A stretch of 64,000 bases of DNA from Bolinopsis microptera. Lineage: Eukaryota; Ctenophora; Tentaculata; Lobata; Bolinopsidae. The stretch is taken from positions 9,091,411-9,155,410 of the forward strand of contig NC_087073.1 in NCBI RefSeq assembly GCF_026151205.1. Reading direction: 5' to 3'. Shown here in pieces: positions 9,198 through 61,198 of the stretch (positions are counted from its first letter, which is position 1; each line of letters begins with the position of its first letter). Position numbers and translations under genes: made by a program. A model generated the notes under the pieces. It was given only the letters and a program-made list of their open reading frames with translations, had not been told where the DNA came from and did not search any database.

Positions 9198-9509
9198 GAC
9201 ATACAAACATTTTGCAATCTACAGGAGGAATTACTGGGTTGGGTGCCAAATATACAAATAATCACTTAATTCAACTATAATCACTAAAATATATATTTTG
9301 ATTTCCGCTTTTTACATAATGACATGATTGGTCATCTGGCCAAAAATATCATGGAATTCAGAACCTTTATTGGCACAAGCTACAACATGAAATACCGTTC
9401 TAAGTAATACAACATTTTGGGGTAAATCACATTTAGTATAATAATTTAATTTAATTTGTAAAGTTCGTAGATTACTCTACAGGGTCATCGAATAGTTCGA
9501 CCGCCCTTG
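9198..9509. other. Gene-free stretch
   Basis: Unremarkable AT-rich sequence between the satellite and the SINE. I see no coding or structural signal. Confidence 0.5.
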
Positions 9510-9750
9510 TTTTACAGTACACTACATTGTAGATGTTCTGAAGGAGTATCCTAAGATTCTTGATCTTTTGGCACAGGCACCCCTCCTCATTTAACCCTCA
9601 ATCAAGTTTCCTATCATTCGGCTGAGTCGACCGAAGAGATCGCATAGATCCAATGAATCCTTAGCTACTCCCTGACTGAGTGAAACTGGGATTCGAACCC
9701 TGAACCTTCTGTACAGAAGGCGGAAGCTCTAACCACTAGGCCACCCAGCC
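9510..9750 (-). mobile_element. tRNA-derived SINE, full head
   Basis: Read on the - strand from 9750, the element begins GGCTGGGTGGCCTAGTGGTT. It has an A box (TGGCCTAGTGG, 9733-9743) and a B box (GGTTCGAATCC, 9689-9699) at tRNA spacing. The putative anticodon arm is degenerate (CCTTC/GAAGG with a six-base loop), so it is not a working tRNA gene. A body of about 170 bases follows. The body recurs without the tRNA head at 25157-25310. No clear target-site duplication was found. Confidence 0.8.
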
Positions 9751-10024
9751 ATAGTAACTACAAACAACATACCCAACCTTACCATCCTCCCTCATTATTA
9801 TTTTAAAAGTAAAAAACATACAACAGCAGTAAAATGGACAAAAATACTTACGATCTTAGATGTGAGATATAGTATTTGGGCAGAAAACATATTTCCACAG
9901 TTAGATTACGAAAAATGTATTCGTTATTAAAAATTGTAAACAAATGGTGGTAAACTGATGGTGTATAAACTTTAATAAACTAAACTATGTGTTAGGTGCA
10001 TAGGAAAAATATTTCATATAGTAT

Positions 10025-11642: not shown

Positions 11643-12162
11643 AATCTAAAACCTGTTGTTATCTTTTCAAAGCTCAAATTATGATTCAGGGTTAAAAAGT
11701 TAGGGGTAGCAGGGAGTAAGCTTGTACTCAATCCAACATTAACATATCTCAGCCACATAAAACTTAATCCTTGACAATATTATAACATAAAATGAAAAAT
11801 GTAATCTTGCGAAATATCAATTTAATCGTTGCACTTTAAGGCAGAAATGAATCCTTGACATTATTAGCATCATTATCAGTCGGCCTTTACAATTAAATAA
11901 CTGTAATTGTAAAATTGTTACATTCTTCCGAAATCTGAATACCAGTCTGCAGAAGCACTCAGTTTGTATTAGACAATATATTTAATTATTGGCAATTGAG
12001 CACAATCATTTTGTTCATGTTTCAAGTGTTCGTTTGCGCAAATAAAGGGGTTTGCAATAAAATCATGTAAACGTTATTTTATCATAAATAAATGTACAAC
12101 TCAATACAGTGAACTTGTCGAGTTATCAATAAAATAGTTAATTTAAGGCTTTCAAGATATTG
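11643..12162. other. 5' flank of the SDR gene
   Basis: AT-rich, with no coding exon seen. The sequence just before the SDR start ATG (- strand) contains a possible splice acceptor, so an untranslated first exon may lie here. Confidence 0.4.
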
Positions 12163-17280: not shown

Positions 17281-20200
17281 ATGAACCGGTTACTACTCCT
17301 TTTGATCTTTGACTTGGTATCCGGTCAGCAGTACAGCAAGCACATTACCCCAATCGACTATGAGGTGCCACATGAACGTAAGTTGTTTATTTGTTATTTT
17401 TAGATCAAGGTGCAGGAGGAGTTTTTGATATATTTTATAAGGTTAAATTGTATGCATTATGGCGGATTATGGTTGGGACTAGATAAAGTTCGATTAGTTT
17501 TGAATTAGTTTTAGGTATGCTTATGAATTCATAGTTGTCTATGATACTTACAACTCAGGTCTGGTGTGTCATAATTTGTTTTACTGACACATTGAGCTGC
17601 TAGACTATTGGAAGCATCTCGTGGTTTCTAAATCTTGACCCTTCTCCGATTGAAAATGATATCCCGGAAAGTCTAAATTGAAATCATTTCCGCCAATTGA
17701 AAATGACATTCAAGAAAATTGTCACCGATTAAAAATTATTAAGCTGGCAATAAGTTGCTCGTAATGTTTTGCTTTTCAGGAGAGCAATTTCAATAGGATA
17801 AGTAGCGACATATTTTCACCGAAATTTTGACTATTGTAAGAAGTCATGATAATTGCCATCCGTCTAAGAATTCAAACATTTATTGTTATGAGCCTTTCAT
17901 AAATATACAAATTCATGATCATTAATGCTCTTGATTCAATGCCAATAAGTTTTCATATTCCAAAGTGTTGCCATGGCATCTTGAATAAATTCTTCATTCG
18001 TGAATTCCAAACCTTTGCCAGCAGACATCTGCAATATGACCTAAATTCCTGAGGTACTGTGCCAAATTGTCCCAATTAATTAAGCTGTGCAATGTAAAAA
18101 CCCGGTAAGAACGAGCAACATCACAGTGGCTTCATTTACTATAAATATTCGCCCTATCCTGTTTCTTGCCATATTTACCATTTACCCGGCCCTGGTTTCT
18201 ACAAATATAGTGCAGGTAGCTCTCGTCCAATTGCAGAAATTACATCATCTTGAGTGTACCATAAACTAGTGGTAGGAGTGTAACAATTGTGGTATGGGAG
18301 TGATTTGTGTGTGTTTTCCTCGAATACTGAGCAATGAGGGGTAGAGGAGCACCTAACGAGCCCTATTACTCGACTTTTCTCCGATGTTATTTCCTGGTTT
18401 TACTAAGTTACATGTCGGGCCAGGTTTGAAGATAAATAATTGCTTCAACCATGGCGTGGTTAGTTAGTAACCGGGTCGTGAAGAGTTAATCTCATATTAC
18501 AAGTTGATCAAATAATCATGACATAATGAAAATAATTTGATTTCTTAATCAATTATTGACGTAGCATAATATTATGCTGTAGTAGAATATTTGATTTATT
18601 TTATCTTCTGAAGTATTTGTCAGCATCATAAAGCCATATAAAATTACCTAATTACTATTCTACACCATATGAACTATGAAGCACGAGATCATTACTTTCC
18701 CAAAATTACAACCTTTTAAACTTCCTATAAATCAGAGCTATGATGACGTCTAGAAGTTGGCTGCTATGCCGATAAGCTTCAATTGAGTCTTGAATGCCTT
18801 CATTGTGGTTCAATTATCAAATATTCATTGTCTATTGTGGTAAAACAATAAGGCACGAATATCAAGTTATTTGTCAGATAACTAAGCAATTCTCATGCTT
18901 GATATATTTAAACCACGGAGTTAAATGTAATTAGACAAATAGCTTGGGATTCGTAGTCTACTAGTCTCAGTGACAGCTTCAGACCCTTACAGATCGGTTA
19001 AAAGCTAAACCGTATAATTTAAATATTAACAATGTACATCTTGTCGGCAGATCATAGCTTGATTGATATATATCCCGATTGCTCTGAAGGTAGATCGAGG
19101 TGGAGCCGTGATTCAAGTCACACCTAGAATAGATCATTTTAAACAGTTTGCATGTATGCCTAATTTGCAGAAAATGTTTTATTGATTATATACTCCAGAC
19201 TTCGATATGTAATTACTACTATCGAGAACTGGATATATTTCAAGGAACGATAATGAATAGAATTATGGGATGTAAATTTAGGGAGTTAGCTGGTCTGATT
19301 ATATACTGACAAAAGATGAATTATTAATTAGAACATTAATTTATCATAAACGTTTTCTGTTCTAACTTTTCAAATGGAAGGAAATTGTTAATTTCTGGTG
19401 TAATGCTATTAAATTTTTAAATTTGTCTGTCCGCTTTAACAATTAATCCTGGCCGCCGTCATCAACTCTCATGACAAATACAATTAATGTGACTATGAGA
19501 AAGTTTAGGACAGAAGAGTTTTGCTCGAATGTTTAGTCGTAATTATGAATGATTATTATCCGTACTCCACGAAGCGGCAAGTTCTTATAATATGTTACAT
19601 ATGTAAATATATTATCTTTATAGGTTTATACACCCAATCGATAATGAAATATAATATACAGGAAGTTTTAGGGCACACCGTATAACTGCGTAATTTATGA
19701 TAGCAATGATCTAGAATTTCAGGGATAACGATTAATGCGAAATGATGTCATAAATCGGAAAAAATGAATAGATATCTGGATTCTGGCATGCTTGGACAAA
19801 TTCAATGGCTTTTTGTGACGTCCCAAAGTCGGGATATGATTGATTAGCTAATCGCCAAATCGTTGTATCAATGATGATGAGCAATTCAGAATTAGACAAC
19901 GTTTTAAAAATTCCCGGAGTCTGGAAAATAATTTTTGTTCAATGTATCAAGTTCCCCAAATCAATATAAGGGCGGGTAGCTACATACATTTAATTTCATT
20001 GCCATATAATGGTGTACGTGTGTAATCTGTAGTGAAGCCCCCCATACGTCCTACTCGTACATTAAAAGAGAGGAAAACCAAACTGACACACGTGCTCCCT
20101 AAATTATCAATTTCCTGTAATCCAATATAACCGATTATCTACTGAATCACACTGATAATGTACCAATACCGCAAATCTGGTGAATATCTTGACCACCCGG

Positions 20201-41200: not shown

Positions 41201-44200
41201 TTTTCTATATAAAGGCGAAAGAAAATCGATACGTTTCATCTGCGAAGTTTGTCAAAGTGGTCGTTGTCGACTGACAATGTTCCGTAATAATAAGGTGTTT
41301 CATGAAAATAAAATTACCGAAAAATTGCTCGTAAATCAAACTTACTCTGACTGGCACTTTCTGTCATGATTCTTTCGTTCCGACTCAGAGTTAAAATGTT
41401 TCCGACAAAATCTGCACTCTACCATGTTTAACCTTTCCTGATATCAAAACTTTTTTAAACACAACGCATGAGAAATATACCAAGGACTGGGCAACCGTGG
41501 CCTTTATACCCCGGCTTATCAGATATAATTAACGTCGGGTTATACAGAATTTGAAATCTAACTGGGAGCTCGAGTTTAACCGGTGCTAAATTTCGTAGAA
41601 AACGTTTCAAATTGATCTCATAATTTTGTTTATTAAGTTCTTTTTCTTTTACCTCTATTTTCTCCTGTAACATAGTACGTCTATAGGGTTGACTATATAT
41701 GTATTTGTGGAGAGGCTGGGCCTGGGTGGCCCACGAGAGGATAGCATGTGGATGCTTTGCCTACCTCTGGGGTATGGCAGTCCTATGGGAGGATGCCGGT
41801 GGAATCAGAATGTGTAATCTAGGATGATGGTTAGTGTTGTGAGATATGTCATAAATGAACGCTTAAGTGGTAGCTGGGTGTGGAAGAGAGAGGTGAAATA
41901 AGAGAACGTGTGAGTAGTCACTAGTCGCTCTGTTACAACAGTCTGGTCCAGCTCCTCTGGCACAATTAAGCGTTTAGTGTGGTTTGCGAAGTTGATGATA
42001 GTGGAGATGTTTTGGTTGTCGAATATGTCATTGACGGAGAGGTAGTAGTCCTGGAAATATTGCTCTCTTATTTGGGCAATAGCCAGGCACTGTCCAAGAA
42101 AGTGTGAGACAGTCTCCTCTTCGTCGCCGCACATAGGACAAGCACTTGTGCTTGATTTGCGAATGGTATGGAGGTGTTTGTTTAGGCCACAATGTCCCAT
42201 GATGAGGTGCACACCTTTTCAAACCCACAACTTATAGATTACTGCAGCAGACATGTCTGGGCCAGTTTTCCAATGACCAGTTGCAGTCTGTCATGGTTTT
42301 TTAACATTGCCAGTCATTGCTAATATGAACGTAAGCGCACATCACATACGCTTACGTTCCATATTAAAAATGACTCGCAAAAATGGCAAGTCAGATAACT
42401 GCATATGGATAAGATTTGAGCTTTGTTGAACTTTAGTTGGAGAGAATGAATGGCCAACTAATTTAAGTCTTCTGCTGCTGCAGACATAATTATTGGAGAT
42501 ACGTGATGACTGAACAATTTTAAATAAAAGACAAAAATTTTAGACAAAAAATGAATATTGAAATTTTCATAAGAAGCAAAAATTCTAAATAAAACGAACA
42601 TATTCTCCACATATACAACTACGTCAGGAAGCACTTTTTTGTCTATAATTTATTTTGCAATTTCGCTGCAGGTGTGCAATATCGGGTTTCTCAATTCGAT
42701 TCATTATCATTAGTGTTTTAGTGACGTCATAATTTTTCGTCTATCAGTTACTGATAGTCAATTGCGCCTATACTAGGGCCTCGCCTCTCAGTCTAAAATT
42801 ACATTTTTAGACTGAATTATCACCAATGTATTGGCCCGGAAGAGATCTGCAGTATTCAGATCATGATCACAGGATTTTATTTTAAGATGGAGCATTGGCT
42901 GATCTCTAGTCGCTCTATTACTATAGAAATTTCTTGTCTTGTCAGTAGTCTAGGTCACATACTAGGTCACATACTAGGTCACATACTAGGTCACATACCA
43001 TGATAAGAATTGTATTCTAAATTTAACCATGTTAAATGTTTAAACTTAAGAAATTGAATATGTCTTTCGAAAAGTACAGTAATTGTCGTAATTTTGTGGT
43101 ACTGCATGAGTGATTCGAGACGAATCTTTCGAAAATCTCAAATTCGAATGAATTTATAAAATTTTCTCGAGCTTACAAATTTAATAGCAGTAGCAAGCTT
43201 AGTACTAAGCGTTCAAAGTATTCATTCTAATTTAGACTATTTAATTTCGAGCTTTTCTAATTTGGATCAAGTTGTCCGAAGTTGTTCTTATTAATGTAAA
43301 ATACTGAATATGGCAACACAATACACATGTCACCAAGACATAATTTTTCAAAAATATTTCAAATCAACTACGGTATAAAATTCTGTAAATATTCCCTAAC
43401 TATTCACTATACACTCTACTTCAGCTTTCGTTTATTGAAAACTTATAATGACCAACTTTATTTTCAGTGATATTCAAAGAGCAGTGTTGGAGCACGGAAG
43501 AAGGCGACCTCATCGTACCACAGTATTGTTCCAACACCACTAACTACTGCTCAAAATGCTACTTCAACAAGGACGTCCAAGACTACCGCAACCATTACAT
43601 GTCTTATAACGATAACAGGTTTTAATATAAGGCGGCGCGCGGCAGGCGGCCCACCGCGAAACACTAAGTAAAATTTGAGACTTTCCATCTCTTCAATTAA
43701 TTCGCTCCAATTAGAGAAAAGACGGTGATGTTGAGTGACTCTGTGATTATCGCAACAGAAAAGGCCCAAGGGTGGGAATTTACAGGCCAAACTAGTAGTA
43801 GTAGTAGTAGTACCGGCCATAATAAATATTAGCATAATTATTGTTATTATGGAGTTATGGACCCGGAATCTCAAGTGGTTCAATCACATAGGGTACGAAT
43901 TGCAATTGTAGACAAAATAATGATGGAATCATGAGTAAGTGTGTAGCAAGAGAGCAGGGGTCTTTCCTTCATCGACTGCGATTAATGTACGTTTTAATGA
44001 CTACATCATTAGCAGTTAGCATACTTGTGCCCAAAGTGTTACCTCGTCAAATCCTCAACAATTAACTCACAGATCAAATTTTAATAAAATCATTAGGTGC
44101 CGTTCGGAAATAAGTAATTGTTCACAAATAAGTTATCTAGTATCTTATCCCCTTCCTTTCAATCTTACTAGAAAGAAATTCAACAACTGCTTATTTTCAG

Positions 44201-47200
44201 ACTTATTGTTGGTGCCATGGACAACATATTCGCCTTTGACGTGACAGACAACTTGTTTGAGAAGTTACAACAAGTGGACGCCCGTCATCCCTGTGTGGTA
44301 AGAAAAGTATTTGTGTTGTTTATTAAATTATTACATTGTGAATTAGGTTGTTTATTAAATTATTTAATTATGACGCGGACGGTTCCTTGACGGTAGAAAT
44401 GTCTTAAGATTAACGAAATAAATCTTGTACTGTCATACTTATGCTTTATTAGTGGTCAAAACAGATATAATTTAGTGCGAGCTTGATCTAAAAACTGGCA
44501 TAAAAAACTGAGCATGAGAAGAAACCTCTTGATCATCAAACAAGGTTTTGATTTCAATAATTGGACCTAAAGATCATTTGATCGTACAATTCTATTCATT
44601 AAATCAATCATTCGTGGGTAAATGCAAATTTCGAACGATGGCGATGTCCTTTGTCGTACTGGAATGCATCTTACTATATATAAAGTGAGACGTACCATTT
44701 TACTGACACCACGGCAACAACTTTAACACGACGTTCCGCAAAAACCGTAAAGATATAAAACTGAAATCAGCATGAAAAAATAAAATATAGATCAAGAAAT
44801 AAGAATTTTAGTGCCCAAAATTTGGACCCCCAAGTGGTGTCAAAAACGCGAATTAAATAGGTAATAATTATTTTAGTCTCTTGAGTCTTGACACCATTTT
44901 AGGATTAGACGGGTTCCTGCTAGTACATATAAAGACAATTTATGTATAATTTTATCAAAATATGTAATAACCGCTAAAAGGCGGTGCCATGCCCCATACT
45001 GTCTTAAACGGGAAATTTTTTCCGGATTATTAAATAATCAATATAAAAAGCGTTCGTTCTAGTGAGTCATAGACTTTTAAACTTATTATCTGTTATTTGT
45101 AAATATCCCAGCCAATATATGTATAATAATATGTCATGACCATCTGAAAGTTTCCGTTCTATAATAAATTTAAAAATGTAAAAAATTACTCTGGTAGAAA
45201 AAAGAGAAGCACAGAGCCATCAGAACTTTATCAATACAAAAAAAAGGTGTTATATTCCTGAGAATAAGGGCAGATTATATTGATTTTTCATGTTTCAAAA
45301 ACACGTACAGTTACACTTCATTCGTTTAAACTAAATTAATAAATTAAGTTAACAACCCGATATACGATATGCTGATACTAAAATCTGGTCTGCCGTATGC
45401 CTCCAGTTGTATTTATCACAACAAAAAGGCTCGAATAGAGAGTTAAGTTAAAGCGCTTATCAATTGCATTGCACAATCGACGGCCATTCAGAATCAAAAT
45501 AGATTCCCAATTAATGAAGGATTTCTCAGCTTAAATGGATGGAAGTATCGTTCAATTTTAAGTGCTTGTGGAATATATAAATGATCGTTCAATTCCATCG
45601 ACTGCAACCCCACCCCGCTCACTGAGCTTTAGTTAAGTGGTCTTTTGTTCTACAAAAGTGCAGCGGTAGCTGTACGGGGTGATGCGCCCTCAACTATTAC
45701 AAGATTTTATTTCGCAATCGGCAATGATTTGATCACCAGAATATTCATGCTCTTGTATAACAGAATGGATCTTAGAGTGAAATCATCTTATGCTCGAACA
45801 ATCTGCAAACTTTCTATCGCTATAAGGAACTTTCTAACGCTTTAGCAATCTTTACAAAGGCATATCTTAATCTTTCTCTGGGTTGGGTCAGAAGTCTGAC
45901 CCATATCTTAATCTTACCATTCCAGCCAGTAAACTGCTGGACACTCTGAGCATAAGTAACCGGCAAACTTTTTAACGATGATTAATATGTCTCCTGATTT
46001 TGCAGGAATCCTGCAAGAATTACAACCGGCTGCTTCTTCCTCTCCCAGACACAGGCCAGATCCTGACGTGTGGAACTAACGCTTACGCTTGCCAGATCAG
46101 AGAGGTAAATATTTGAAATATTTGGTTTTTTAAATAACGTAATTAGTTTCGATCTAAGCTGTGGTTAACAGTTTTCAGGATTATAAGTACAATGAATGTT
46201 CACACGGTTATCTTTAAAATTCTGATATTTGGCTTCTGGTGGCATTCCTGGGGCACTCCTGGAGCCACACAGTATTTATCATTATTTGCCGTGATTGATA
46301 CTCAACTATGAACCCTTTTAAAAGCCCACGTCTCTTTGACTTTAGTTTTTCCTCCAAGAATGATTGGATATAATATGTATAATGTATATATAATATATAT
46401 TATAGAATTATCACCATCGACTTTTAGTCTCGTTTATGAATTTCTGATCGGATATTTCTAAGCTGTGTTTATTCTTGTTGTAAGTGTACTAACATCCAAG
46501 GAATCTTGAGATAAGTGTGGTGTTTACCTGAAGCAGAGAATATCGTACAGGAACAATTTATCATATATATTTATTTTCAATATTGTTCAATATTGTTCCT
46601 GCATCGTACAGGAACAATATTGGAAATGAATATATGATAAATTGTTCCTGTACGATATTCTCTGCTTCAGGTGAACACCACACTTATCTCAGGATTCCTT
46701 GGATGTTAGTACACTTACAACAAGAATAAACACAGCTTAGAAATATCCGGTGTTTACAAATTTTGAAATGATCCCAGAAATTCTTAAATGAGACTAAAAG
46801 TCGATGGTGATAATTTCTGTTACGCCTCGCCTGCCCTATCCGTTTTTGCAGTATATGTGGTTCAAATGTTGTGGGAAGTAGGATAGGTAACACCGTAATC
46901 TGGATCTTATCTGAATTGCTACGGGGCGTAAATTTAATAACGAGCAGAGAGATAAGAGGATCGTGTTACAGTAATCTTAATATGGGAAATATAAGTCTCA
47001 AGAGAATCAGTTTCCGGGAAATGAGCCTTACTTTATGTTTTATTTTTATGTTTTATTTGCTATCGTTACTTTTCTTTTCCCTAGGGGTAACCTAAGACGG
47101 CGTATGCAATATTATTATTTTTTGATCCGATGAAGTCGTTTGGTTTTATAATAAACTTTAGCGTTAATAGTTGAGCGTCATTGATCAGATGTCTTCCGAG

Positions 47201-50200
47201 GGGTTCCACAGAAACACGAAACCAAGTTAAATAACATTTATACTAATGTGTTGAGAGTTTAATAATAACATACCCCCACGCGTAGTGTCTGGTGAGTTTA
47301 GCTTTACTCTCAAGAAAGATGATAGAATCAGCTGATTGTGGCATGTTCCTAGTGCGACTTGTTATCTGGGGACTGGGTAATGAGCTTTTTGAACTTGCAA
47401 TTGAATAATTGAGTCGTGCAACAAATTATATATTGTCGATTTAAAGGATTCTGAATTTTTGGTGGGTGCTGAGGTTTACAATGATAGGTGTTTAATGACG
47501 GAGTTATTGAGAGTGACTTAGAATAATCAACTTTCATGGATATACCGAGACCACTTTCTTTGGCTTGGACCGAAAATATGCCGGGACCAGGTCTAAAATC
47601 GGGTCTGTGACGAGGATAAGTGCCGATGTGGGCCACATCGCTAGGAATATCACCGACAAAGATTCGAAAGCGCGACACTCCAAGCTACGTATGATCAGGA
47701 ACAAGCTGGATCCAAACCACCGAAATTTAAATGATATAAAATCAATAATTTAATGTTGTTGCTTGGTTTCCCACGAAAAGTGCTCATCTACAGACAAGCA
47801 GGAACATTATATTTCAAACAAGTGAAACAATCAAATAGGTGGGCAGACGAACCGTTTCATGATATAGTTATAAAAACAATATCAATCCTCATATTATCTA
47901 CAAAATGAAACGACGGTTTACGTCAAACAAACGTTTCAATCAATAGAAAAGCATGATCTTTTCTTGTATTCCACTTTAAGCTAGCCGATAGAGCACTGTC
48001 AGCAGACTACACCTCCCAAACGTATAAAATATATATACAGTAAAACCCCGATTTACCGTAATAAAATTAAATAATAATAGATCAGTAGTTAATAAGGAGG
48101 ATAAGATGCAGGGTTTAAGTGAAAAACGGGACTTAAGTGAAAAACGGGACTTAAGTGAAAAACGGTACTTAAGTGTAAAGTTAACCATATTAAAGTTTAT
48201 TAAAGTATATCCCCGGGTCAAAATCGGAAAAAATCCTACATTTTAATATACTTTAATATACCTACAATTAGAAGATTTAGATTCTTCGTTAAGATTTACA
48301 TGATGAACTATAGTTTTCACTCAGATTCGCAAGATAAGCCTGTTTTAGGACTAGTACATGAATTTCCATCCAGATTGGTCAAAAATTGGCTGAGCTATGA
48401 GCTTAAAAAAATATGCCCATATTTGGGCATACGCTTTTGCCCAAATTCGCTTTTGCCCAAATTCGATAAAATTTCAATATTTTTTAATGAGACTAAACTC
48501 TATGTGAAAGATATAACTCAGTGTTTGTTGAATATAGTGGATACTAAGTAAAAAGACCTCCATGAACAAAATTGGGAAAATTGCACATAATATCTCGGTT
48601 CGGAATACCAGCCAAAATGTCTTCATTGAAATTGAAATAACTCCATCAGTTTTCAATATTTTTTCAAGAACTTTTTGGAAGCAAAAAGTATTTCCGAACA
48701 GATACTTAAGTACAAAAACTTAAGTCAAATTTTGTACGATATGTTTTACTTAAGTACATACTTAAGTACGCTGTTTTTCACTTAAAATGTAAGTATGGTC
48801 CGGAGGTTACTTAAGTGCAATAATTATAATTAACTCAAAGGGGAACGAATAATTATGTTATCAAAATGGAAGTAGAATTATTTATGAGATTATAAAAATG
48901 TTTTGCGAACGGAGGAAATTGTGAGACTATATATTACATAAAAAACAATAATTATGCAGTATAATACAATAGCCCTGAAAAATTTCCCAAACAATACATT
49001 GTCCCCCCTCACGTCTTTCTGCACGAAACGTGACTAAGTCATGTTTCAGAAACAACTTAAGCGCGAGTTTCTACTAAAATATGAAACGAAGTTTCGGAAA
49101 CACATTACACAAGTATAGTTTCGGAAACAATTTTTCTAAATTTACTTGGTCTACATATCACTTAAGCATTTTTTTTTTCTTCGGAAAAGGCCCCCAGATA
49201 TATTCTTGTCCCCCGCTCACTTAATCTTCACAGCATGTCCTGAAGAAATAATCTCTGCAGAATTCCTCTGCAAGCGAGCCAAATTTAGATATGTGTGCCT
49301 CGTGGAGCTACGTCCACTGCCCAGTCTATAGTGCTGAAATAAAGCTCTTTGCAATTACCAACAGTAGCGACTTATAAATGAAAGGCATACTTCCTGTCAC
49401 TTCTTGGCCTTCGCGCACTTAACCTTCACGTTGTCCTGCGGTAATAATTTCTGCAGGATTCCTCTGTTGCAAGCGAGTCGGATGGGCTAAAGAAGAGATT
49501 GGTACCAGGTGGAACCCACTGCACAGTCTCTCCTGAGATAAACCTCTTTACCAACTTCAGAACAAGCAAATATAAGATACCTCAACCTGCACTACTCCTA
49601 ACAACTCAAATATATAATGTAGATTCTTGAGAACTCTGAAGACTTGAGGATGGATAAAACAATACCGACTGTGACTAAATTTAATCGGATCATGACAAGA
49701 ATTGGGTGTATGGAGCATATAATTATATCACGTAGAAATGATATGTATTCTTGTGTAAAATTGATATGAAAGAAATGATAAGATGAATTACTTTTTACTG
49801 ATCTTAGTTGAGAAATTTTATAGTAAATATGTTTTTTATAATGGCGGGGAAGTGATCATTATTTTCGACAGAAAACTGAAATAACTCTTACGAGATGCTT
49901 GTGATATTTTGCTTCATGATTATTGTAATTATTGTGGCCGCGGACATTTCACACCCTCTTAAGCAGCTAACCGTAACGGCCTTTCTAATTTTGAGTTACA
50001 AGGATTTCAGAAATAGGGCGATTCTGATGGATCCTTGACTAGACAGATGCTAGCACTATTATACTGCAAAACAAGACGAGAAGGAAGGAAAAGTGGTATT
50101 GTATTCCTCCGCGCATATATCAACTATGCAATGACATTATTTAACCATGACATCATGTTCTTAACATTTCAGATCAAGAACTTAACCAAGTTCAAACGAT

Positions 50201-53200
50201 TGAGTGGTGAGGGGTTTGTCCCTATTAACGAGAACGCACAGAACACAGCTGCGTTCTCAGACAGCAGGATATTTGCTGGTTCTATGATGTCGGGTGACGC
50301 TGCTGACAATGCCTTTGTTGTTGCTAGTGCTAAGGTAGCTAGACCGTCACGCCCCTTATAATTTTCTATGTATTGTATTGTAAAGGACCCGATAAATTTT
50401 AAAAAAGTAAATCTAATATAATATGTGAATGGACAAATGATCAAATAAAGGAAATTGTTGCATAATTCCACTTTTCAGATCGGTAGAGAAGGCGAAAAAG
50501 CTTCCTTTGTAAACATTGTGGCAACTAGCCCCAGTATTGAGGTGCTTAATCGTGCAAAGTTCGTCGCTTCGTTCAGCAGCGGTGACTACGCGTACTTCCT
50601 ATTCCAGGAAATAGAATTCTCCACTGGAGACAGAGTCAACAAGGTGAGTACTGTTACGTGTAGATCGAGAGAAACGGTGCAGTTTTATACTCTTATAAGA
50701 GTCCAATAATATAAATATTATTGGACAAATGGACCATTTGAAATGGTATTTAAACGGTGATCAGAGTTTACTCTAAAAGGATACTTTTTAAAAATAAATA
50801 GCGGCTATTTATTTTGTCATCGTTTAAAAGTTTTAGTTTAAAGAATTTGTAATATTCCGGTTACAGGTTGTATCACGCATTGCCAGAGTTTGTAAAGAAG
50901 ACACGGGAGTAGCGGCAGATCTGGAATATTTCGATAATGCAAAATTGTGGCAAACGTTCGTAAAATCACGGATTTACTGCGAGAACAAGGTCACAGATCC
51001 AACCTTTGGAGAGCAGACCTTTACGTACAACCGTGTCGGTATGTTGAAACACTATTTTAATTTCTAAAGAGGTCACAGTGTCACCATGGATATTCCCATT
51101 CCGTGATCTCGGAACTGAATTAATCTACGCGGCACATTGCAAATGGTAATGTGCCGCTGTTTGCCAATGACTATGTTGAGTCAAATTAGTAGAGCTATAC
51201 ACAATACAGTATACACTCTTGTACTTGATACAATTACCTGCTACAATTTGTATATTCCCTTCCCGATTAAATATTAATAGAAACAATAGAAATACTTACA
51301 TTATTCATTGTTTAGGATGTCTTTCTCATATGACTAGGAAAACTGGTGGTTTCGGATGAACAAACCACGCATATTTAAAGATTTGTTAACTGTTTACTAA
51401 ATTATGTTCAACTCCCAGGAGCTGGTATTATCGACGATAACAGGATTCTGTACGCAGCATTTTCGGAGGGTGACACCTCAGCAAGTGGTTCAGTTGTATG
51501 TCGTTTCAACCTAACCGAGATCGACATTAACTTCAACACCGCTAAATACAATCACTTCAACACTGTTGGCAGCTCCCGACCTAAAGCCAAATCGAGGACT
51601 CCCCCTACTTGTGAAGATATTGGAAATGCGGAATCTGAAGATATATATGTAAGTTGACATAATCCTTGAAAAAACGATTAATACCCTTCTCCCAATGACC
51701 TTTCACCTTGTTTTTTCATAATCTGGTATTATTCTTTTATCGCTCGATTTAATCTGTAGACAATGGTAATGTTTATTAAATTTATTAAATTCGAGGCACT
51801 TTCACAGAAATATTCATTTTTTAAAACTAAGTTAAAATAATGTCAGGAGTTGATGTTGACTGTTGATGACGTCACGTCGAAGGATCCTCCTCTGTTCCTG
51901 CAGTCGGGACCGCAGTTTACTAAACTTCTGGTGGACTCCAACATTAGAAACGTCTCAAACCCTGTTCTCTTCATTGGAACTAGTAAGCAGCTTGTTAAAT
52001 TTCATATGACCGACACGAATAATTTCTATGATTTTTATTGCTAACGTGGCTTGGTTATCTCACTGTCTCTGTAGTTACATCGAAATTGGAGAAAATTAAA
52101 CTATGCATAAACTATGCATAATGTGCATTATAAAAGTATAAAGTTACGTGCTTTCGATATCGATGTCTGCCCATTGACGTCAAAAACCGTTTTAACAAAT
52201 TATGTGGCCTTGTCGTTATGTAGCCTAGCAATCAATATGTTGCTAGCGCTCAATTATTCAAAAATAATTTAATCGGAAAACTTTAATTCCAAAACCTACG
52301 TTTCTAAATATCATATTTATCCCCTCAGACATGGGGAAAGTTCTGAAGGTTACATGGCGCACAGCTGATGACGGATCCTTCAAGCCTATCCTTATTGAGT
52401 CCATGCAAGTTGCTAAAGGAGACACCAAATCAGATTTAAGCGTCAACTTTCTGGCGTTTGAGAAAACTATCGATCCTGTGAGAAATTTAGCGATATCAAA
52501 TCAAATCTTTATTTTCAGACTTCAATAGAACATTGTGAAGTATATTTTAGATAAAAAACAAGTAAAATGGTGTGAACTGCTACTTTTAAAAATACCTTTG
52601 AACCTTTTATTAAAACCTTTTAACCTTTCATCGATCACTCCACATAATCACTCACTCGGACTCACATAAAATGTTGACCCTACTGACGGTGGAATCTCCC
52701 CAGAACTATCTATTCGTGGGTACGGGTACCTCGGTCTCCAAAGTAGTTATATCGCGGTGTCTCCGGTTCCCGAACCTGACCCAGAACTGCTGTTACGCGT
52801 CACTGGATCCCTACTGTGGGTGGTGTAGTGTGATGAGAAAGTGCACCAGCAGACCAGACTGCAGGTTTGTCGGATTCATTTGTCATTCCTGGTTATTCCT
52901 GGTCAGCTTAGTTTATATCCGTAAATTGAGTTTAGGAACTTTGTGTTTTAATATTTTCCTTTTCACTAAACAAGTTAGTCAGTGAAACCATAACAGGATT
53001 GGCAAAGGATTACTATTTTACGTGTCTGACGAGAGCACGTAAGTGCAACATATTGCAGCTATACGTTAATAAATATACCATCCGACTTATGGAGCATTAC
53101 GTAAACAAGCTGGGTTTAAACTATATAATAATAATATTATTATTAATATAATAATAATAAAAACCAGTAAAGGATCAACTTTGTTTTGCTTTAAACTAAG

Positions 53201-56200
53201 CAAATATATTTTCCATAATGGCCTCCCTTTACTCTTCATGTGTAACCTCTGCTTAAAGCTATATCCAGCTACACGTTCATGTAATAACAACTTCTTATCA
53301 AGCGGGGGGGGGGGGTACCAATGGCATAAAATGGCATAAATGGCATACGTTTTATGGCATAAATGGAAATTTTTATTGGCCAATTCTCCATTTATGCCAT
53401 GAATTTAGGTCTTCATATTTGACTATAAATTCGCAAATTATTATTAGTACTTGAATAAGAGACATCTTTCATGCTTTATAACGCTTGGAATGATTGTTAA
53501 AGATTCATATGACAAATAAAGAAAATAGAAATGTATTATATCAAAAATGGCATAAATGGCATACGTTTTATGGCATAAATGGAAATTTTTATTGGCCAAT
53601 TCTCCATTATGCCATCTATGCCATTGGTACCCCCCCCCCCCCCTATCAAGCTAACATAGTCTATCTGTGTTCCTATCTAATGTTGCAGTCAAGCTATTTG
53701 TACATTTTATTCTAGTGGACCCTGTCTGTCATAGCACAAAATAACATAACATTGAGATGTGAGTTTATGTGAAAAGCTCAAGATTCTGTTACATATTATA
53801 TCTATTTTCATTTTTCCCCGTGTTATTTCTATAGAAAATTATGATTAATTTTCATCAGTTAATGAACTGGTAATCATCCACATTCCACGTCCATATTAAA
53901 AACCACATTCTTACTGGATCCCGTTGAATTTTGGCGTTCACTGACACTATGAACGTAGTTTTAAAGCATAGGACGTAATCCGAAACTTGGAAAGTGTTAC
54001 TGTACAATGTACGTCCACAAGCAAGCCATGATATACGTATGTTCTGACTTCTGACGTTTAACAGAAATGTTTCAGCAAGAACTTTAGAGCACCCTAGTAA
54101 TTATCACAATTATTCGTCCCATAAATTTATCTTACCCGGAAAGCTGACTTATCTTGCGCTCTGAATTATCAAGTTTTTAGCAGGAAATTTGCCACGATTA
54201 TTTCCTTTTCGTTTCGAAATTGTTGACGTCACCGCCTATCTTAGCAAAGTTATTCAAAAATGAATTATTTATCATGCCAAATTTGAACATTATCATGATA
54301 AAATGAATTAGTGTATATCATACCCAATTTGAAGATTATTACACTTCGCTGATAGAGGCCTTTCTCTTATCTGAATTGGCGCGTATTTCTAAGATAAAAA
54401 CTTGTCTTATCTGTGAATCTTAAATTGAATGAAATTGAAATATATCAAATTATGGGCTGATCCTTCTGAAAATGTAGGGAATATAAATATACTGTTTTCA
54501 TAATATTATCATTACGTAGACTGTCTAATCTAATATCATAACCTAATAATTTCTTAAGACTGATCTTATTATACCTAAAATTCTTCAGAATATGTTTCTT
54601 AACTGTAACAGCCGCAACCAAGACATGGGTGGCTTTCCCTAAACCATCAACTTTTAAATGAGAAAAACCATGCCGTCAGCAGATGCTCCCATTTATTAAC
54701 TTTACCGGTAACTTTATAACCAAGCACTTAAAAGTTTCTCTCGTGACACATACTCAATCCAGTGATGATGCTGACACAATCTGTTGATGACATCATCAAA
54801 ACTGTGGCAGGTTGATCTTCAATTAACAGTTAAATACGCTACTTGACAGTAGAATAGCTACGGAATGTTATTGCTGAATCATAAAGTCTATTGTCTGGTG
54901 ACGTCAGCTGTTGATGTCTGCCTGGTGACGTCAGCAGCGCTGTCTCCACGGACAGTTTTGTCGCTCTGTGGTGTGATAGTAAGGAAGGGATTAATATTCA
55001 GCAGAAATCAAACAACAATAAAATATTAATAGATACAGGCACGGGTTTTAAAGATGGGATTCATAGCGAAATTATAGTTAAGATACAATTACAATATGTA
55101 CTAAAAGCATCCATTGAGAAACAGCTGTGAATCTCTGCATTGCCTTGAATATCAGTTGCTTTAACAATTAACATGGCAATTGATGAATGGAACGTGTAAG
55201 ATATATTAACCTTCCTTATATTTCAGTTCGGACTGGATACAGAGCCTGACAGCCACTGCTCCTGATGAAAGTACCTGTGAAAGTACGTATCTAATAGTGT
55301 CGTATAAATGTCACGTAATCTCATCCTTCTGTCTTGTGACGTCACGACAGGTATCGTGACGTCACGTTATCTGTCATGACGTCACTCTTGACAAGTGATG
55401 TGACGTGTTCTGTGGTGGTTTTTTGAGTTTGCAGATTTTGTGGTTTTTCTGTTTTTTTTCTCTTTGATGATTTTCGTCTTTCCGATTTAATCAAGCTCTT
55501 TGATAATCACCCATGATAAATCCATTTTCATAAAAAGAATTCTCGGTTGTTCCATCTTTAACTGTGTTAAACCGTGTGTCTTGTTATCCTGTTGCAGTCT
55601 AACCTGCGTTTTGTCTATCACTGAAATCTATACAATTAGAACAGGAGATAGATTCGAATAAAGATTTAAACCCTTTATTCCGAACTAAACAATAGATACT
55701 TTATTCAAGCTAAATAATAAAAGTACACTAGCACGGTGCTAGTAGAAGTACTATAATACGTTGACCGCTGTAGTAATCCGCTGTACTAATATATATGTCC
55801 CCCTGGCCAACAGTTAATCACCACCACACCACGACTCCTCACCACCACACAAGTAAGCACCCTCACTCACTAGACCACCCTACTCTCAATCCAGGACAAG
55901 ATAACACTCAAACGCCTTCGCCGACCACCGCCCCGCCGCCGACAGAGCCGCCGACGACCAAAGGTAACGGAAATCTCCCACTGCCACCCCTCTATCTTTT
56001 AATATCTCGGTAGCATCGGGAGCAAGTTTAATGATCATGAAAATGATTTGTGCTTCAATTCTTTATAATTATATGATCCGTGCATGCAACATACGCAACA
56101 AATCTGTTCTTATATTATCGACCTCAATCCTACAGCTTTAGATTTTTGTGATTCTTTCGATTTTTGTCTGGAGATGTCAATTAATCCTTGCCTTTCTGTT

Positions 56201-57758
56201 AGCCTGTGCAAAAATTGAAAATCATGATTTAAAACAACTTTTCTTTGTAGATCCCGTGATCAAAAAGTAGCATGGTTCAGGGCTAGTATGGTCACTTAAA
56301 ACCCTTCTGAACCTCATTCATTAAAAACTGCAGGTCTTTTAAACAATTTCTTCCTACCCATGGTAGATATCATGGAATCGTTTTTGGCGGTAAGGGACGT
56401 GATGTCCTCGAAACCCTAGAGTTCTGAACCATGGGACTTCGTGCATGAACTAGGGAATGTCTCATGATCTGACTAACTCAAACTCTGACTCAAAACTCTG
56501 ACTGATCTCTGCTAATCTGCTGTTGCTTTTCGTGTCTGTGACAATCGATTCCGCTGATTAAAAGTTTGCGAGCTCCATTTTTTCTCCAAACTCCCGATAT
56601 TTTTATTAATATTCTATGTTGGAATGATTTGCATGCCTATTTGCTTGTGTAACTGTATCTTTGTGATACTATCATATTTTTGAAGTATGTTCAGATCACT
56701 GCTTCACTAAGACAGTGTATGATTTTGTGCTGCGTGTTTGAGTGAGCTAAACTGTGTACGTGAGCTATGTGTTGCGCTATTTCATTGACTAACATGTCAT
56801 AGGACGAGATCCGACTCCCGTTCCCAAACCGACGACCAAGCCGGACAGTCATGAGACAGATCGTCCAAAAACAGAGCCGGAACCGACAGAGCTAGTACCT
56901 AAAACACTCAAACCACCCACCACCAAACAACCACCGCCCGATAAAAGCACGGATATCACCAGGGAGCCCGTCACCGCCACCAGGGAGAGCGTCACCAATA
57001 ATAACAGCACAGGTACCGTATTGACTCTCTCGCGCGTAATGTGATGACGTCACGTTACGCGTGACATGACGTCACGTGATCGTGGTGACGCGCGGAGCGA
57101 TAATATCTTGTCTGGGGTGCGTGTGGTGCGGGTACGTCCGAGTGTTATCTTGTGTAGATATGTGAGAATGCTACAGCACAAACACCAACTCATTGCACGT
57201 GTTAGATATTGGCAAAGCATCCACTTCATTTTTGGGTATCAAGCACATTCCTCTGATCCTCCTCACGTGTGGTAGTATGTGAGTCGCGTGTTATTTTGTT
57301 GTGACCTTGCTTTTTGTAACCTCCTTTTTTCAGGTTCTCACACTTTCATGGTCTACTTTTATAAGACTCAACAACACCAAACATGCTATCAGAAAACTCA
57401 CACTCTCACCACTGTACGAACGTTTTATATATTTGTACAAACTGCATTATGTGAGTGTTTTTCAGCCTGAAATTCTAACACCGAGTAACCCCTAGCCCCT
57501 CCCTTTTCCCGCTAACACAGCACACAAACAACTGCAGGATATTTTAAGATAGTAGTGGACGGTACTGATCCCTACGTCAAGCCTGTTGAACCTTCTCCGT
57601 GCAGCAACCCGAGCATCGCCCCGTCGGAAGGTGTAACATTCATTACGCTTAGCTCGAACATCCGCCACTACAAAGTGTTATCCATAGTGCTTGGAATTCT
57701 AACTTTCGTATTTGCCGCTACTTCCTTCCTCTTGGCGGCCATGCAAATAGGACAGTAA
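17281..57758 (+). CDS. Semaphorin with PSI domain and Pro/Thr-rich stalk, isoform a (short hydrophobic C-terminus)
   Basis: Fifteen exons join in frame with GT-AG borders: 17281-17377, 43468-43618, 44201-44297, 46006-46104, 50173-50334, 50479-50643, 50867-51038, 51419-51648, 51847-51982, 52329-52477, 52704-52864, 55227-55282, 55814-55963, 56803-57012 and 57538-57758. The product is 751 residues. Residues 1 to about 16 are a signal peptide (MNRLLLLLIFDLVSG). The sema propeller spans about 75-490, with NRLIVGAMDNIFAFDV, LTCGTNAYACQI, DYAYFLFQEIEF and SGSVVCRFNLTEI. A PSI domain follows at about 505-540 with DPYCGW at 521-526. Exons 13-14 encode a mucin-like Pro/Thr/His-rich stalk. This C-terminus ends in a hydrophobic segment (about 723-747) and only QIGQ, which suits either a GPI signal, as in SEMA7A, or a tail-less membrane span. 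Semaphorins signal through plexins in cell guidance. The first intron is 26 kb. The subclass was not assigned. Confidence 0.93.
21003..21371. repeat. Long inverted repeat, ~175-bp arms, 16-base loop
   Basis: The left arm 21003-21181 (starting ATCGCGTGCCCTGAAAATCG) and right arm 21198-21371 (ending CGATTTTCAGGGCACGCGAT) are near-perfect reverse complements. The loop AAAAACCATCAAAAAA is at 21182-21197. Differences are scattered single bases and small indels. There is no coding potential. It is transcribed within semaphorin intron 1, so the pre-mRNA would fold into a long hairpin. Confidence 0.9.
22291..22344. repeat. (GT)n microsatellite
   Basis: Interrupted GT repeat. It gives rise to a meaningless Cys/Val open frame. 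Confidence 0.9.
24535..24583. repeat. GC-rich imperfect hairpin
   Basis: CTGCGGAAAAACCGCGG and CCGCGGTTTCTGCAG form an imperfect stem around a 14-base loop. It stands out from AT-rich surroundings. Confidence 0.7.
25157..25310 (-). mobile_element. Truncated SINE copy (no tRNA head)
   Basis: It matches the body of the SINE at 9510-9750 in the same orientation. Shared blocks include TCGGCTGAGTCGACCGA, GATCGCATAGATCCAATG and TCCTTAGCTACTCCCT. The match stops where the tRNA-like head would begin, as expected for a 5'-truncated insertion. Confidence 0.8.
31934..31992. repeat. 10-bp minisatellite
   Basis: About six copies of ACATGGTGCA, one degenerate. Confidence 0.9.
32960..33300. promoter_or_regulatory. 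E-box/CCAAT cluster in semaphorin intron 1
   Basis: Within 340 bases there are four CACGTG motifs (33026, 33067, 33241, 33282; three as TCACGTGA) and four CCAAT boxes in either orientation (32967, 33050, 33092, 33259). The local GC content is above the intron background. This arrangement is typical of bHLH-ZIP/NF-Y bound promoters or enhancers, by general knowledge. A small + strand frame with a signal-peptide-like start (MLAVFVILLIMTSRS, ATG at 33182) lies inside it, so it could be an internal promoter. That is inference only. Confidence 0.35.
36543..36636. repeat. 14-bp minisatellite
   Basis: Almost seven copies of TAGAAGTAGATTAT, nearly perfect. Confidence 0.9.
38046..39100. repeat. Diverged local duplication with rearranged blocks
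   Basis: Blocks recur in the same order: TTCCTGACTGTTTCTGTCTC (about 38050/38490), ATTATACGGTGCACTGCCGC (about 38131/38575), CAATTCTCAGAAAAGGCGGT (about 38180/38684), and TTTCTGTAGTTGCT with ATAAGACATTCGTTGAT (about 38298/39002). Spacing grows from about 440 to about 700 bases, so insertions have separated the blocks. No coding sense. Confidence 0.75.
40990..41202 (-). CDS. Small antisense ORF, 70 codons, unknown
   Basis: ATG at 41202 follows a TATATA stretch by a few bases. The frame runs to TAG at 40990. The peptide (MSLFSRHKTERFESYCQRLG, then YNNWRQLSQDAIRRLG, and a charged helical end) has mixed, globular-looking composition, unlike the AT-driven frames around it. A short upstream frame (ATGACAGAAAGTGCC) ends in a strong GTAAGTTT donor near 41345, so this could be part of a spliced gene. 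I recognise no family. It lies antisense within semaphorin intron 1. Confidence 0.25.
41805..42212 (-). pseudogene. 3' end of a non-LTR retrotransposon ORF2 (LINE relic)
   Basis: The frame reads MGHCGLNKHLHTIRKSS, then CPMCGDEEETVSHFLGQC. This is the GHCxLNxHLxxIG...CxxCxxxEETxxHFLxxC signature found downstream of RT/RNase H in Jockey/CR1-like LINEs (family knowledge). The reverse transcriptase core is absent: upstream sequence on the - strand is broken by stops. It is a truncated relic in semaphorin intron 1, antisense to it. Confidence 0.7.
42950..43001. repeat. 12-bp minisatellite
   Basis: Four copies of AGGTCACATACT. Confidence 0.9.
44680..44935 (-). repeat. Dispersed repeat, copy 2
   Basis: Reverse-complement match to 12231-12485, sharing the GTACCATTTTACTGACACCA end, the TTCCGCAAAAACCGTAAA block and the AATTAAATAGGTAATAATTA block. 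It lies in semaphorin intron 3 and has no transposase reading frame here, so it is a solo fragment. Confidence 0.8.
46404..46817. repeat. Long inverted repeat, ~185-205-bp arms
   Basis: Left arm about 46404-46588 and right arm about 46612-46817 are reverse complements. Shared blocks include CACCATCGACTTTTAGTCTC, TTTCTAAGCTGTGTTTATTC, GTAAGTGTACTAACATCCAA and GAGAATATCGTACAGGAACA. The right arm has an insertion of about 30 bases near 46755-46785. The centre has an extra nested copy of AATATTGTTCCTG. It sits in semaphorin intron 4. Confidence 0.9.
48039..48815. mobile_element. Possible nonautonomous element with 18-bp internal repeats
   Basis: Four tandem copies of ACTTAAGTGAAAAACGGG (48113-48178) and later scattered ACTTAAGT words (to about 48815) lie in a segment starting CAGTAAAACCCCGATTTACC. 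That start resembles pogo/Tigger-type termini. The far end (GGTCCGGAGGTTAC) is only weakly complementary to it, so the element boundaries are uncertain. A frame at 48300-48551 shows no family match. Confidence 0.35.
49195..49560. repeat. ~185-bp tandem duplication
   Basis: CACTTAA.CTTCAC..TGTCCTG, AATAATyTCTGCAG and ATTCCTCTG..GCAAGCGAG recur at about 49215 and 49408, with further weak similarity downstream. A third, more degenerate unit may start near 49005. Confidence 0.6.
52865..55226 (+). other. Semaphorin intron 11
   Basis: Apart from the G-tailed MITE and two CRE palindromes (54899-54906, 54926-54933), no feature is seen. Confidence 0.6.
53304..53643. mobile_element. MITE with homopolymer-G termini and 8-bp target-site duplication
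   Basis: The element starts with 12 G residues and TACCAATGGCATA, and ends with TGCCATTGGTA and 14 C residues, forming perfect terminal inverted repeats. It is flanked by TATCAAGC on both sides (53296-53303 and 53644-53651). Internally a unit of about 70 bases (TTTTATGGCATAAATGGAAA...) is repeated at both ends. There is no coding sequence. The 8-bp duplication suggests a hAT-type mobiliser. It lies in semaphorin intron 11. Confidence 0.85.
55337..55384. promoter_or_regulatory. Three CRE palindromes at exact 20-bp spacing
   Basis: TGACGTCA occurs at 55337, 55357 and 55377, each followed by C and embedded in a loose 20-bp repeat. It lies just after the 56-base exon 12. Further copies are at 54899 and 54926 upstream and at 57045 and 57067 in intron 14. 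TGACGTCA is the CREB/ATF site. Two-helical-turn phasing would put bound dimers on one face of the DNA, but function is inference. Confidence 0.4.
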
Positions 57759-57990
57759 TGTAGTCAGCTGAACTTGCCGTGAATATCGCGGCTTTTAACT
57801 ATATAGCTCGCTCAACCGCTACCTAGCACTCTCTGAAGAACATTATCAAAAGCCCGAAAAACAAAGCACTCGAAGTTGGTGGATATTATCGGACACTATC
57901 ATAGGGACAAAGACAACAAGCCTGACAGACACATGTTACCTTGCTGTTTTCACTAACTAACTTTCTATCTATCAGCCCCATGCAACTCTT

Positions 57991-57996
57991 AATAAA
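57991..57996 (+). terminator. Poly(A) signal after exon 15a
   Basis: AATAAA lies about 230 bases after the TAA of the first alternative last exon. It would allow that exon to be used as a complete 3' end. Confidence 0.5.
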
Positions 57997-58836
57997 GCAA
58001 AGTAGAAGGAGATATCTGGCTATCTTTAAAGTCGTCGTGCAATGTTATATAGCTGATGTGTCACTGAAAGCCCCCTTCAAATTCTTCTCATTCCTTTGTC
58101 ATGTTCCTATTCGCATCTGTAACATACTAATTTTCCCAATGTGTCTTACTGTTAATATAGACTATTGAGATCCGTCTCATTTGTTCGAACGTTGTTGAGG
58201 GAAATTGAGGGACATTGATAAAAACGGATGTATTAAAGTTTAGATGTGGTGTCCCGGTGCTCTCGTAACTTGATGTCCCTCACCTCTCAGTTTTGGAGTT
58301 TTGTGTACAAGAGTGTGTGAATGTTAGTGTAAGAATGTGTGAAAAGTGTGTGAAGCGTGTTACAATTTGTGTGATAATATGTGCATGTCCAATTGTGTGC
58401 TCCTATAAAAGCTATTGCTTCCGCTGTTTGTCTGTCAGTGCGTCTGCGCGTGTGTTATTCTCCCGCTAAACCTATTTAATCTGAATGTTGTTAATGAATT
58501 TGGCAAGCTCCCACTTAACTTAACCCGCAAAATGAAACAGAATGATGCTTACTTATCTGACTAGTTTTCTTCTTTGTTTGAATTGAATTATTTAAAATTT
58601 GATCATTTTTAGGAGCTCGGTAAGGCTCCTAGAAACCAATCATCTATTTAAAATATGTGGGACCTTGCCATTTTCCCGTCTTTTCTTGCTGCTTTGTCCG
58701 CTGTCCCAGAGTGGCACTGCTGAGAGTGAATAGTTTTGTCTGTTCGCGGGATAGTGCCGCTGCTGGAGCGGCAGGACAGGGCCAGGAGAAGGAGGGACTA
58801 CAGCAACCACTTCAACCTTCACTTCTTCAGCCGCAG

Positions 58837-59123
58837 ATCCCGACGGTAGAAATGGTAACGAGGACGCTGTTACGAGTGAAACAGCTGGCTGGAAAAAAAT
58901 TGCCATCGTCATGGCAACCCTGTGTGGAATTTTTGTGTTGATATCAGCGCTGCTGGCCCTTAATCTGGCCAGAAAGTGGTGTTATGCCAGCAGGAAACCG
59001 CCCCAAAAAATGGGAAACAATAATCTTCAGCACAATTACAATCCCCTTGCCTCACAAGGACCCAAATCAGAAGACTTTTCTGACAGAATACCCGTATATA
59101 ATACCAGAACTAACAACGTGTAG
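58837..59123 (+). CDS. Alternative last exon of the semaphorin (transmembrane plus cytoplasmic tail)
   Basis: After a pyrimidine-rich acceptor (CTTCTTCAGCCGCAG) the frame is open to TAG at 59121-59123. The exon starts in the same phase as exon 15a, so exon 14 can splice to either; joined this way the protein is 773 residues. A short acidic juxtamembrane piece is followed by a clear membrane span (IAIVMATLCGIFVLISALLA, about 700-720). A basic stop-transfer RKWCYASRK and a tail of about 50 residues then end in NTRTNNV. Two tandem acceptors six bases apart would add or drop two codons (Ala-Asp versus Asp). An own poly(A) signal lies downstream. The reading frame and phase match make this an alternative terminal exon rather than a separate gene; expression evidence is not available here. 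Confidence 0.8.
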
Positions 59124-59599
59124 TAGTAAAACCATGGTCCTAGATTAAGTAGCGTATTTTCTTCATGTGTTTGTATAATTGTGCCAACAGAACAGATATG
59201 ATTGCGATTTTACAAATTTCAAGCTTGAAAATGGGGAGAACATTGATGAAATGGGTGTACATGCAAAAAAATTCTCACAGATACCGTGCATATCTGCTCA
59301 CAGATTCCGTCACAAGATGTTTGCCTCTGGCGAGGGGAATAACATTTGAGATTTGTTCGTTTACTTTTGACGTTGCGTGAATATTTACCGTTTGTTGTGT
59401 ATTTATTATTTTTACTTCTGTTTGTATCTGTTTTTAAGCATTACAAAATAATGTTTAGTCTGTAGAATTAAGGTAGTGATATGAATTTGAGTGTGTGTCT
59501 TAGCTGCTCATTTTGAGTCATTTCTGAAGTTTTAGGTTCTGAGTTCTGATTGTTTTTCGCTAGTTAACTTTCTCTTAAAAATGAGATAAATATGATATT

Positions 59600-59605
59600 A
59601 ATAAA
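59600..59605 (+). terminator. Poly(A) signal after exon 15b
   Basis: AATAAA lies about 480 bases after the TAG of the second alternative last exon. Confidence 0.5.
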
Positions 59606-61198
59606 CAAAAACTGAACTATGATTGTGTTCTCCTGGATTTCTAGTTGATGTGATCCAGTTACTGCTGACGGACTTTCATTTAAATGCGCAGTTTTTCAGC
59701 GCGGCGCAATATTTCTTGATAATGATAATATAAAATTTAATCAATTTTGGATTTCCACAAGGCGTGACCGCTGATTTTAAATAAGCTGTGATTTTGGTTT
59801 TTAAATGGTTTGATCTAAATGCTGAGCATGGTTTTATATTTTAAATGTTGCAAAGCTCCAAAATGTCAGACTCCGAGGGAAGTCGCGATATTTTACCATT
59901 TAATACTTCCCGGTCGCCCTTTCCAACATACTACATAATATAGGCGAACGAATCAAAATTATTATAAACCAATACTTCAAATATATCTCCGGGCGTGAAC
60001 ATCTTCACTACTATTCATTAGGGTTTGCCTGCTGCACCCCTCTTTGGTCATGTATGGTCAAATTGCTGTAGAAACGAAATGATATGTCGACATTGAACCG
60101 TCAGGTGAAATATATTGAAGTTACCTTTCAATGAATCATGCTTCGAGAACTATTGGGAGTGGGAAAGAATGCGGTGCTTCAAAATCATCCCTGTAAAACT
60201 CACAAAAATGTGATCCTTTACTATGGCTACAAAAATATAAACTAGCTGAAACAATTTTTTATTAAATCTTTTAATGGCCAAGACAATTACTAGATTATCC
60301 TTATGAATTGACTTTAAGCCCTTTATTCCGTCCTGAAGAGGGTGTTTTAGCGACAGGATATTATGTACTGTGTAAATAATTATGCTATTTATTTTGTTAT
60401 ACATTTAATTTATCGTTCATTTGGAGTGTTATGAGGTGCAGGTAAATATATGCACAATGTTTTTGAAGTGACTCCGGTGCTAAGTTTTATAAATTACATT
60501 ATTCACGAGGGAATAAATCTGTAGTTGTCTCACTCGAAAGTTTGTAACCTTAACTTTAAGAGAACGTATTGCCAAAAATATCCTTTAAATTGATATTGCC
60601 TGATATTTGAAACGATTCGATTTTTCAAACAAATTCTCCAATTTATTTTGTTTTCAAACATTCAAATTATCAAACGCTGTGATTGGGTTTAATTGTGAAA
60701 AATATACAGATTTTAATCATCCTTGGAAACTATCTGACGGTTAAAATAGTAAAAAATATCGGTAAGAATATTTTTCATTTACAAACTCTGAGTGACCAAA
60801 GATCAGACAATTTTTAAACGGTTTATTTTATAACTGGTCATCTAACCCAACTTAGAAATAAATATTCTTGCAGAGCTATGTGAAAGATCCTTGGCCACTC
60901 TGTTCACCATACAGTCTTTATTGTTTATTTTCGGTTCTACTTTCAACTTCATTTCGAATTTAAAATCTTATTGCAGCCAAACACTACAATCAGGGCTAGT
61001 CACCGCTGTCATGCCATTAAACTAGCATATCCCGAGATTTTATCTCTGGTATCAGTATTATCCACGAATTTCTTCTCGATATCCAGTCTAAGAACTAGTA
61101 GTAGTTACTCGGACGTAAACATTCGAACTGTTTAATGATTGTCTTGGTGTGTACCTTCTATCCGACACTCCTTTATCTCGAGTAGTGAACACACCCCT
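59606..61198. other. Intergenic region between convergent genes
   Basis: AT-rich, with no credible exon. A TTTATT at 60917-60922 reads AATAAA on the - strand and could end the gene that follows. Confidence 0.45.

Follow-up and report, generated by a model that had tools for sequence, protein, structure and literature searches.

The window analysed here is a 64,000-nucleotide stretch of the genome of the ctenophore Bolinopsis microptera (C2:9091411–9155410; the genome searched comprised 264.65 Mb in 232 contigs), and its forward strand carries a semaphorin gene with two candidate last exons, designated 15a (57538–57758) and 15b (58837–59123). Upstream of these, 13 exons between positions 43468 and 57012 were joined in frame by eye and by script; their borders follow the GT/AG rule, their phases agree and no stop interrupts them. 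Exons 2–4 (43468–43618, 44201–44297 and 46006–46104) represent the N-terminal Sema exons, which were assigned by eye from GT/AG borders and stop-free phase joins. They are followed by the Sema and PSI exons (50173–50334, 50479–50643, 50867–51038, 51419–51648, 51847–51982, 52329–52477 and 52704–52864), identified from Pfam and PDB matches of the joined protein, and by stalk exons recognized by sequence reading (55227–55282, 55814–55963 and 56803–57012, the latter two running from phase 1 to phase 1).

Its domains mark the gene as a semaphorin: a Sema domain is followed by a weak PSI domain and a Thr/Pro-rich stalk. The Pfam Sema model scored 62.3 and 63.5 bits in the two joined proteins (from 50173 on; cut-off 23.7), and the best PDB matches were to Semaphorin-1A (7.9e-24) and Semaphorin-2A (8.3e-24), using a 410-residue query that covered 8 of the 13 exons (50173 to 55282); these results bear out the semaphorin identity given in the initial annotation. 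All 31 distinct PDB sequences that passed are named semaphorins or plexins, except two with Drosophila-type placeholder names. For PSI, the two joined proteins reached 21.1 and 21.2 bits, under the cut-off of 23.1, and the bare frame, which continues beyond the donor, reached 28.7 bits. Neither of the joined proteins matched a Pfam immunoglobulin (Ig) domain at E 0.01. The stalk after the PSI domain has 12 Thr and 11 Pro in 49 residues (55814–55963) and 15 Thr and 15 Pro in 69 (56803–57012).

The last shared exon, 56803–57012, is 210 bases long with phase 1 at both borders, and its earlier numbering as exon 14 fits the 13 in-frame exons plus a candidate exon 1. This candidate (17281–17377, forward strand) came from a loose signal-peptide scan, in which 625 ATGs yielded 21 rows and one was kept, combined with sequence reading; it has a good signal peptide and a donor in the right phase, but it lies 26 kb upstream and its link to the gene is putative. 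A strict scan returned no signal peptide for the semaphorin gene. The open-frame list of the tblastn step contained 10 rows, of which one (45982–46113) was used and nine were dropped, the exons at 43468 and 44201 being placed by eye. A tblastn search with two peptides of the neighbouring Sema-IG type gene gave no match, and a motif scan for these exons returned no rows. That neighbour lies just upstream of the window (C2:9081500–9091410, at about 4000–9900) and encodes Sema and PSI followed by a pair of Ig segments, of which the first falls under the Pfam cut-off and the second lies well above it; a span and further exons were assigned by eye.

Two candidate last exons

The initial annotation had described two last exons in matching phase, each with its own stop and a downstream AATAAA. 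The phases and stops were verified, and the signal scan placed an AATAAA at 57991–57996 after 15a and at 59600–59605 after 15b (both on the forward strand); an ATTAAA is additionally present at 58232, downstream of 15a. Each of the two exons is preceded by an AG, restores the split codon and stays in frame, with 15a adding 73 residues (C-terminal LSSNIRHYKVLSIVLGILTFVFAATSFLLAAMQIGQ) and 15b adding 95, the latter with a same-phase alternative acceptor that would move its start to 58831. The acceptor of 15a scores 4.9 (40th of 360 AGs) and that of 15b 7.3 (9th of 360), both within the leave-one-out range of −1.9 to 9.1 obtained from 13 other acceptors.

The hydrophobic run of 15a lies at the very C-terminus, where the best 19-residue hydropathy window has a mean of 2.40 and its end lies five residues short of the stop; the run is followed by QIGQ and the stop, without a charged tail. 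The residues R, H and K are located only upstream of the run, with none downstream. Ending 15b has one span (best 19-residue window mean 2.75) with 53–55 residues after the peak windows, in agreement with the membrane span and tail proposed earlier, and R, K, R and K come after the span. It reads as a type I span plus a cytoplasmic tail of about 50 residues with a positive-inside pattern.

Chance expectation was assessed with 2000 dinucleotide shuffles of 57013–59600, considering phase-1 frames starting from any AG. A 15a-like end arose in 26 shuffles and a 15b-like end (span plus a tail with a basic start) in 14, while both together arose in none. With the acceptor fixed, 15a-like endings were found in 1/5000 shuffles and 15b-like endings in 2/5000, the basic start of the tail not being required in this 15b test. 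Measured against the gene's own introns, the codon scores are 0.144 for 15a and 0.044 for 15b, and one of 61 open non-coding stretches (0.195) scored above both; the coding model is rough because it was trained only on the semaphorin gene and one or two neighbours.

Two other origins for these exons were rejected. Since an acceptor precedes 15b and its frame completes that of the semaphorin, it does not belong to a separate downstream gene. Exon duplication was also discarded, as no repeat links the coding sequences of 15a and 15b; six short two-copy repeat families are present in 56700–59700. Each protein end, searched against the genome, recovered its own gene plus a single match at chance level (E 1.84 and 0.341), and the DNA search, run with 15a alone, returned only the self-match. 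At the level of sequence, the pair of alternative ends is confirmed as real and coherent.

A proposed anchor choice and alternative readings

The domains and reading frames, the phases and stops, the poly(A) signals and the hydrophobicity can all be seen directly at this locus, and from them we infer that both ends are used in RNA, that the 15a form receives a glycosylphosphatidylinositol (GPI) anchor and that the tail-less and tailed forms constitute a functional switch. A shared Sema–PSI–stalk ectodomain would be ended by one of two last exons of a single gene. If the transcript is cleaved at its proximal poly(A) site, 15a would be retained and the protein would lack a cytoplasmic tail, its C-terminal hydrophobic signal most likely being replaced by a GPI anchor; if 15a is skipped, with 57012 joined to 58837, the product would be a type I semaphorin that spans the membrane and has a tail some 50 residues long. 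The two products would be plexin ligands without and with a tail. That one ctenophore semaphorin gene takes a GPI-type 15a end or a transmembrane 15b end by last-exon choice is a reading that we hold tentatively, at somewhat less than an even chance. Against it count the ranks of the two acceptors among the AGs, the two stops in the best-scoring GAA1 match and several observations that are considered here with the alternatives to which they belong.

The hydrophobic end of 15a is plausibly a GPI signal, or else a span almost without a tail. GPI signals have small residues at the omega and omega+2 positions, a polar spacer and a usual distance to the end, for which 34 residues is somewhat long. 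The best omega site in 15a, S685 (S, S, N, with N at +2), leaves exactly this number to the C-terminus, and it appears mediocre. The GPI reading of 15a given in the initial annotation is possible: the distribution of charges and the location of the run agree with it, whereas the omega site and the distance that separates it from the end are only fair. These last points would suit a scheme in which both ends are used but 15a provides an ordinary span, not a GPI anchor, and a tail of four residues, giving a switch between tail-less and tailed forms; the run, with its peak mean of 2.40, is also long enough for a span. However, R, H and K before the run and QIGQ after it favour a GPI signal over an ordinary span, as the absence of any basic residue after the run is the reverse of the positive-inside rule for type I proteins. 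GAA1 and PIG-T matches above Pfam cut-offs suggest that the GPI attachment machinery is encoded in the genome; the best-scoring GAA1 match contains two stops and the other GAA1 matches contain none. We consider the ordinary-span scheme unlikely as a whole and, given that 15a is used, modestly favour a GPI anchor over a plain span.

It is also conceivable, but improbable, that the locus has one anchor and a variable stalk, with 57538–57630 (or 57538–57561) being a stalk exon spliced to 15b and the hydrophobic run of 15a being intronic. Two donors within 15a do end in phase 1 and score 4.3 (after 57561) and 3.9 (after 57630), compared with 4.1 for the weakest real donor, so that 57538–57630, a 93-base segment on the forward strand running from phase 1 to phase 1 with a weak donor at its end, could be joined to 15b. 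The two stalk exons preceding 57538 likewise run from phase 1 to phase 1, and the codon score within 15a is 0.302 before 57630 and 0.033 after it. Against this, a hydrophobic-ending frame from 57630 arose in only 15/5000 shuffles of 57630–58600 and in 0/5000 of 57630–57990, and the AATAAA at 57991 weighs in the same direction. A composite exon yielding both the stalk-exon and the 15a-end outcomes is possible.

Finally, only one end might be functional, the other being an open frame that arose by chance or has decayed. After some AG, a phase-1 frame stayed open for at least 60 aa in 1789 of the 2000 shuffles, and an open frame by itself therefore means little. Scanning the whole window on both strands revealed three other distinct 15a-like frames (near 46887 on the forward strand and near 53385 and 43738 on the reverse) and one other 15b-like frame (near 22207 on the forward strand, a GT repeat). 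The synonymous-only codon score of 15b is −0.033, its tail score was surpassed by 8/57 null blocks and that of the second half of 15a by 3/57. Two stronger in-phase acceptors, at 57334 (45-aa frame) and 58291 (about 60 aa), precede further phase-1 frames, neither of which has a membrane-type end; their codon scores are −0.205 and −0.131, unlike those of 15a and 15b. This difference and the failure of any of the 2000 shuffles to reproduce both membrane layouts together make a single functional end quite improbable in our view. As the 57334 and 58291 frames are set aside by codon score only, the gene may also give rise to a third, secreted or soluble form.

Other features of the window and related loci

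Semaphorin-related sequences were also encountered elsewhere in the genome. A Sema/PSI gene on C3 has a last exon (1218–1517 of the fetched locus) encoding a strongly basic tail without a span, like that of a secreted semaphorin; Pfam supports its PSI domain and the rest of its identity was assigned by eye. A locus on C5 is a putative plexin gene, as judged by eye from its open frames. One genome search returned five matches, including C2:11178361, and another returned eight, four of which are the studied gene, including C2:17862335 and C5:3276644.

Two further genes lie on the reverse strand of the window. The first (3600–5462) is a 620-residue one-piece frame with WWE and PARP catalytic matches and a CCCH finger just under the cut-off, resembling PARP12. 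The second (10551–11645) encodes a short-chain dehydrogenase and is split into two or more pieces, with an adh_short match on 10554–11300 and the second piece assigned by eye. The window also contains an interstitial telomere-like array of about 11 GGTTAG copies (2952–3016), a 365-base unit present in 3.4 copies that are 96% alike (7771–9031) and a weak, below-cut-off match to a reverse transcriptase zinc finger (41808–42218, reverse strand), perhaps a retroelement remnant. Within a semaphorin intron, 53300–53650 holds a short element whose ends form an inverted pair (G run plus TACCAATGGCATAAA, mirrored at the far side), which by eye resembles a small mobile element.

Relation to known semaphorins and anchor switches

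Semaphorins are usually sorted by gene into secreted, transmembrane and GPI-anchored proteins, and a gene with two membrane ends would turn the type of anchor into a splicing decision. Ctenophores are a lineage possibly sister to all other animals, and the origin of their nervous system is debated; the gene offers a direct test of early guidance-ligand use in such an animal. That last-exon choice lets a ctenophore make the same plexin ligand either as a GPI form or as a transmembrane form with a tail is a possibility that we put well short of even. If it does so, neither GPI semaphorins nor anchor switching would be peculiar to vertebrates, and the tail of 15b might permit reverse signalling, unlike the 15a form.

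In Mnemiopsis leidyi, three Sema+PSI genes (Sema-1A to -1C) are described as secreted and six Sema-IG genes as transmembrane (PMC6374515). The Bolinopsis gene resembles Sema-1A to -1C in layout, combining Sema and a weak PSI match with no Ig domain found, but those proteins are described as secreted (PMC6374515) whereas two membrane-type ends are present here. Secreted Sema-1 proteins are defined by the lack of a membrane anchor, and both ends of the gene studied here carry a strong hydrophobic segment. The Sema-IG layout (Sema, PSI and two Ig domains) is a reported ctenophore class (PMC6374515) that shares the family with our gene, in which a Thr/Pro-rich stalk takes the place of the Ig domains and no Ig match was obtained. 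As ctenophore Sema+PSI semaphorins are reported as secreted in that study, a membrane-anchored one would be new information, and those called secreted may merit a re-check for missed 3′ exons (PMC6374515).

Switching of the anchor by one gene has precedents. Zebrafish sema7a produces GPI and secreted variants (PMC11318972) and, like the gene described here, is a single semaphorin gene in which an alternative 3′ end alters how the protein is held; however, sema7a belongs to vertebrate class 7 and alternates between GPI and secreted forms, whereas GPI and transmembrane forms are proposed here. Sema7A has been called the only GPI-anchored semaphorin (PMC2008261). A GPI/transmembrane pair from one semaphorin gene was not among the semaphorin splicing and anchoring literature listed, a coverage that leaves out most subscription papers. 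A further parallel is NCAM, for which alternative splicing gives the GPI form NCAM-120 and the transmembrane forms NCAM-140/180, together with ApCAM, which has both forms (PMC4810158); the idea is the same, a single gene giving GPI and transmembrane forms of one ectodomain, but NCAM and ApCAM are immunoglobulin adhesion proteins, not semaphorins. The parts are known, and their combination in a single semaphorin gene outside the vertebrates looks new within the literature searched.

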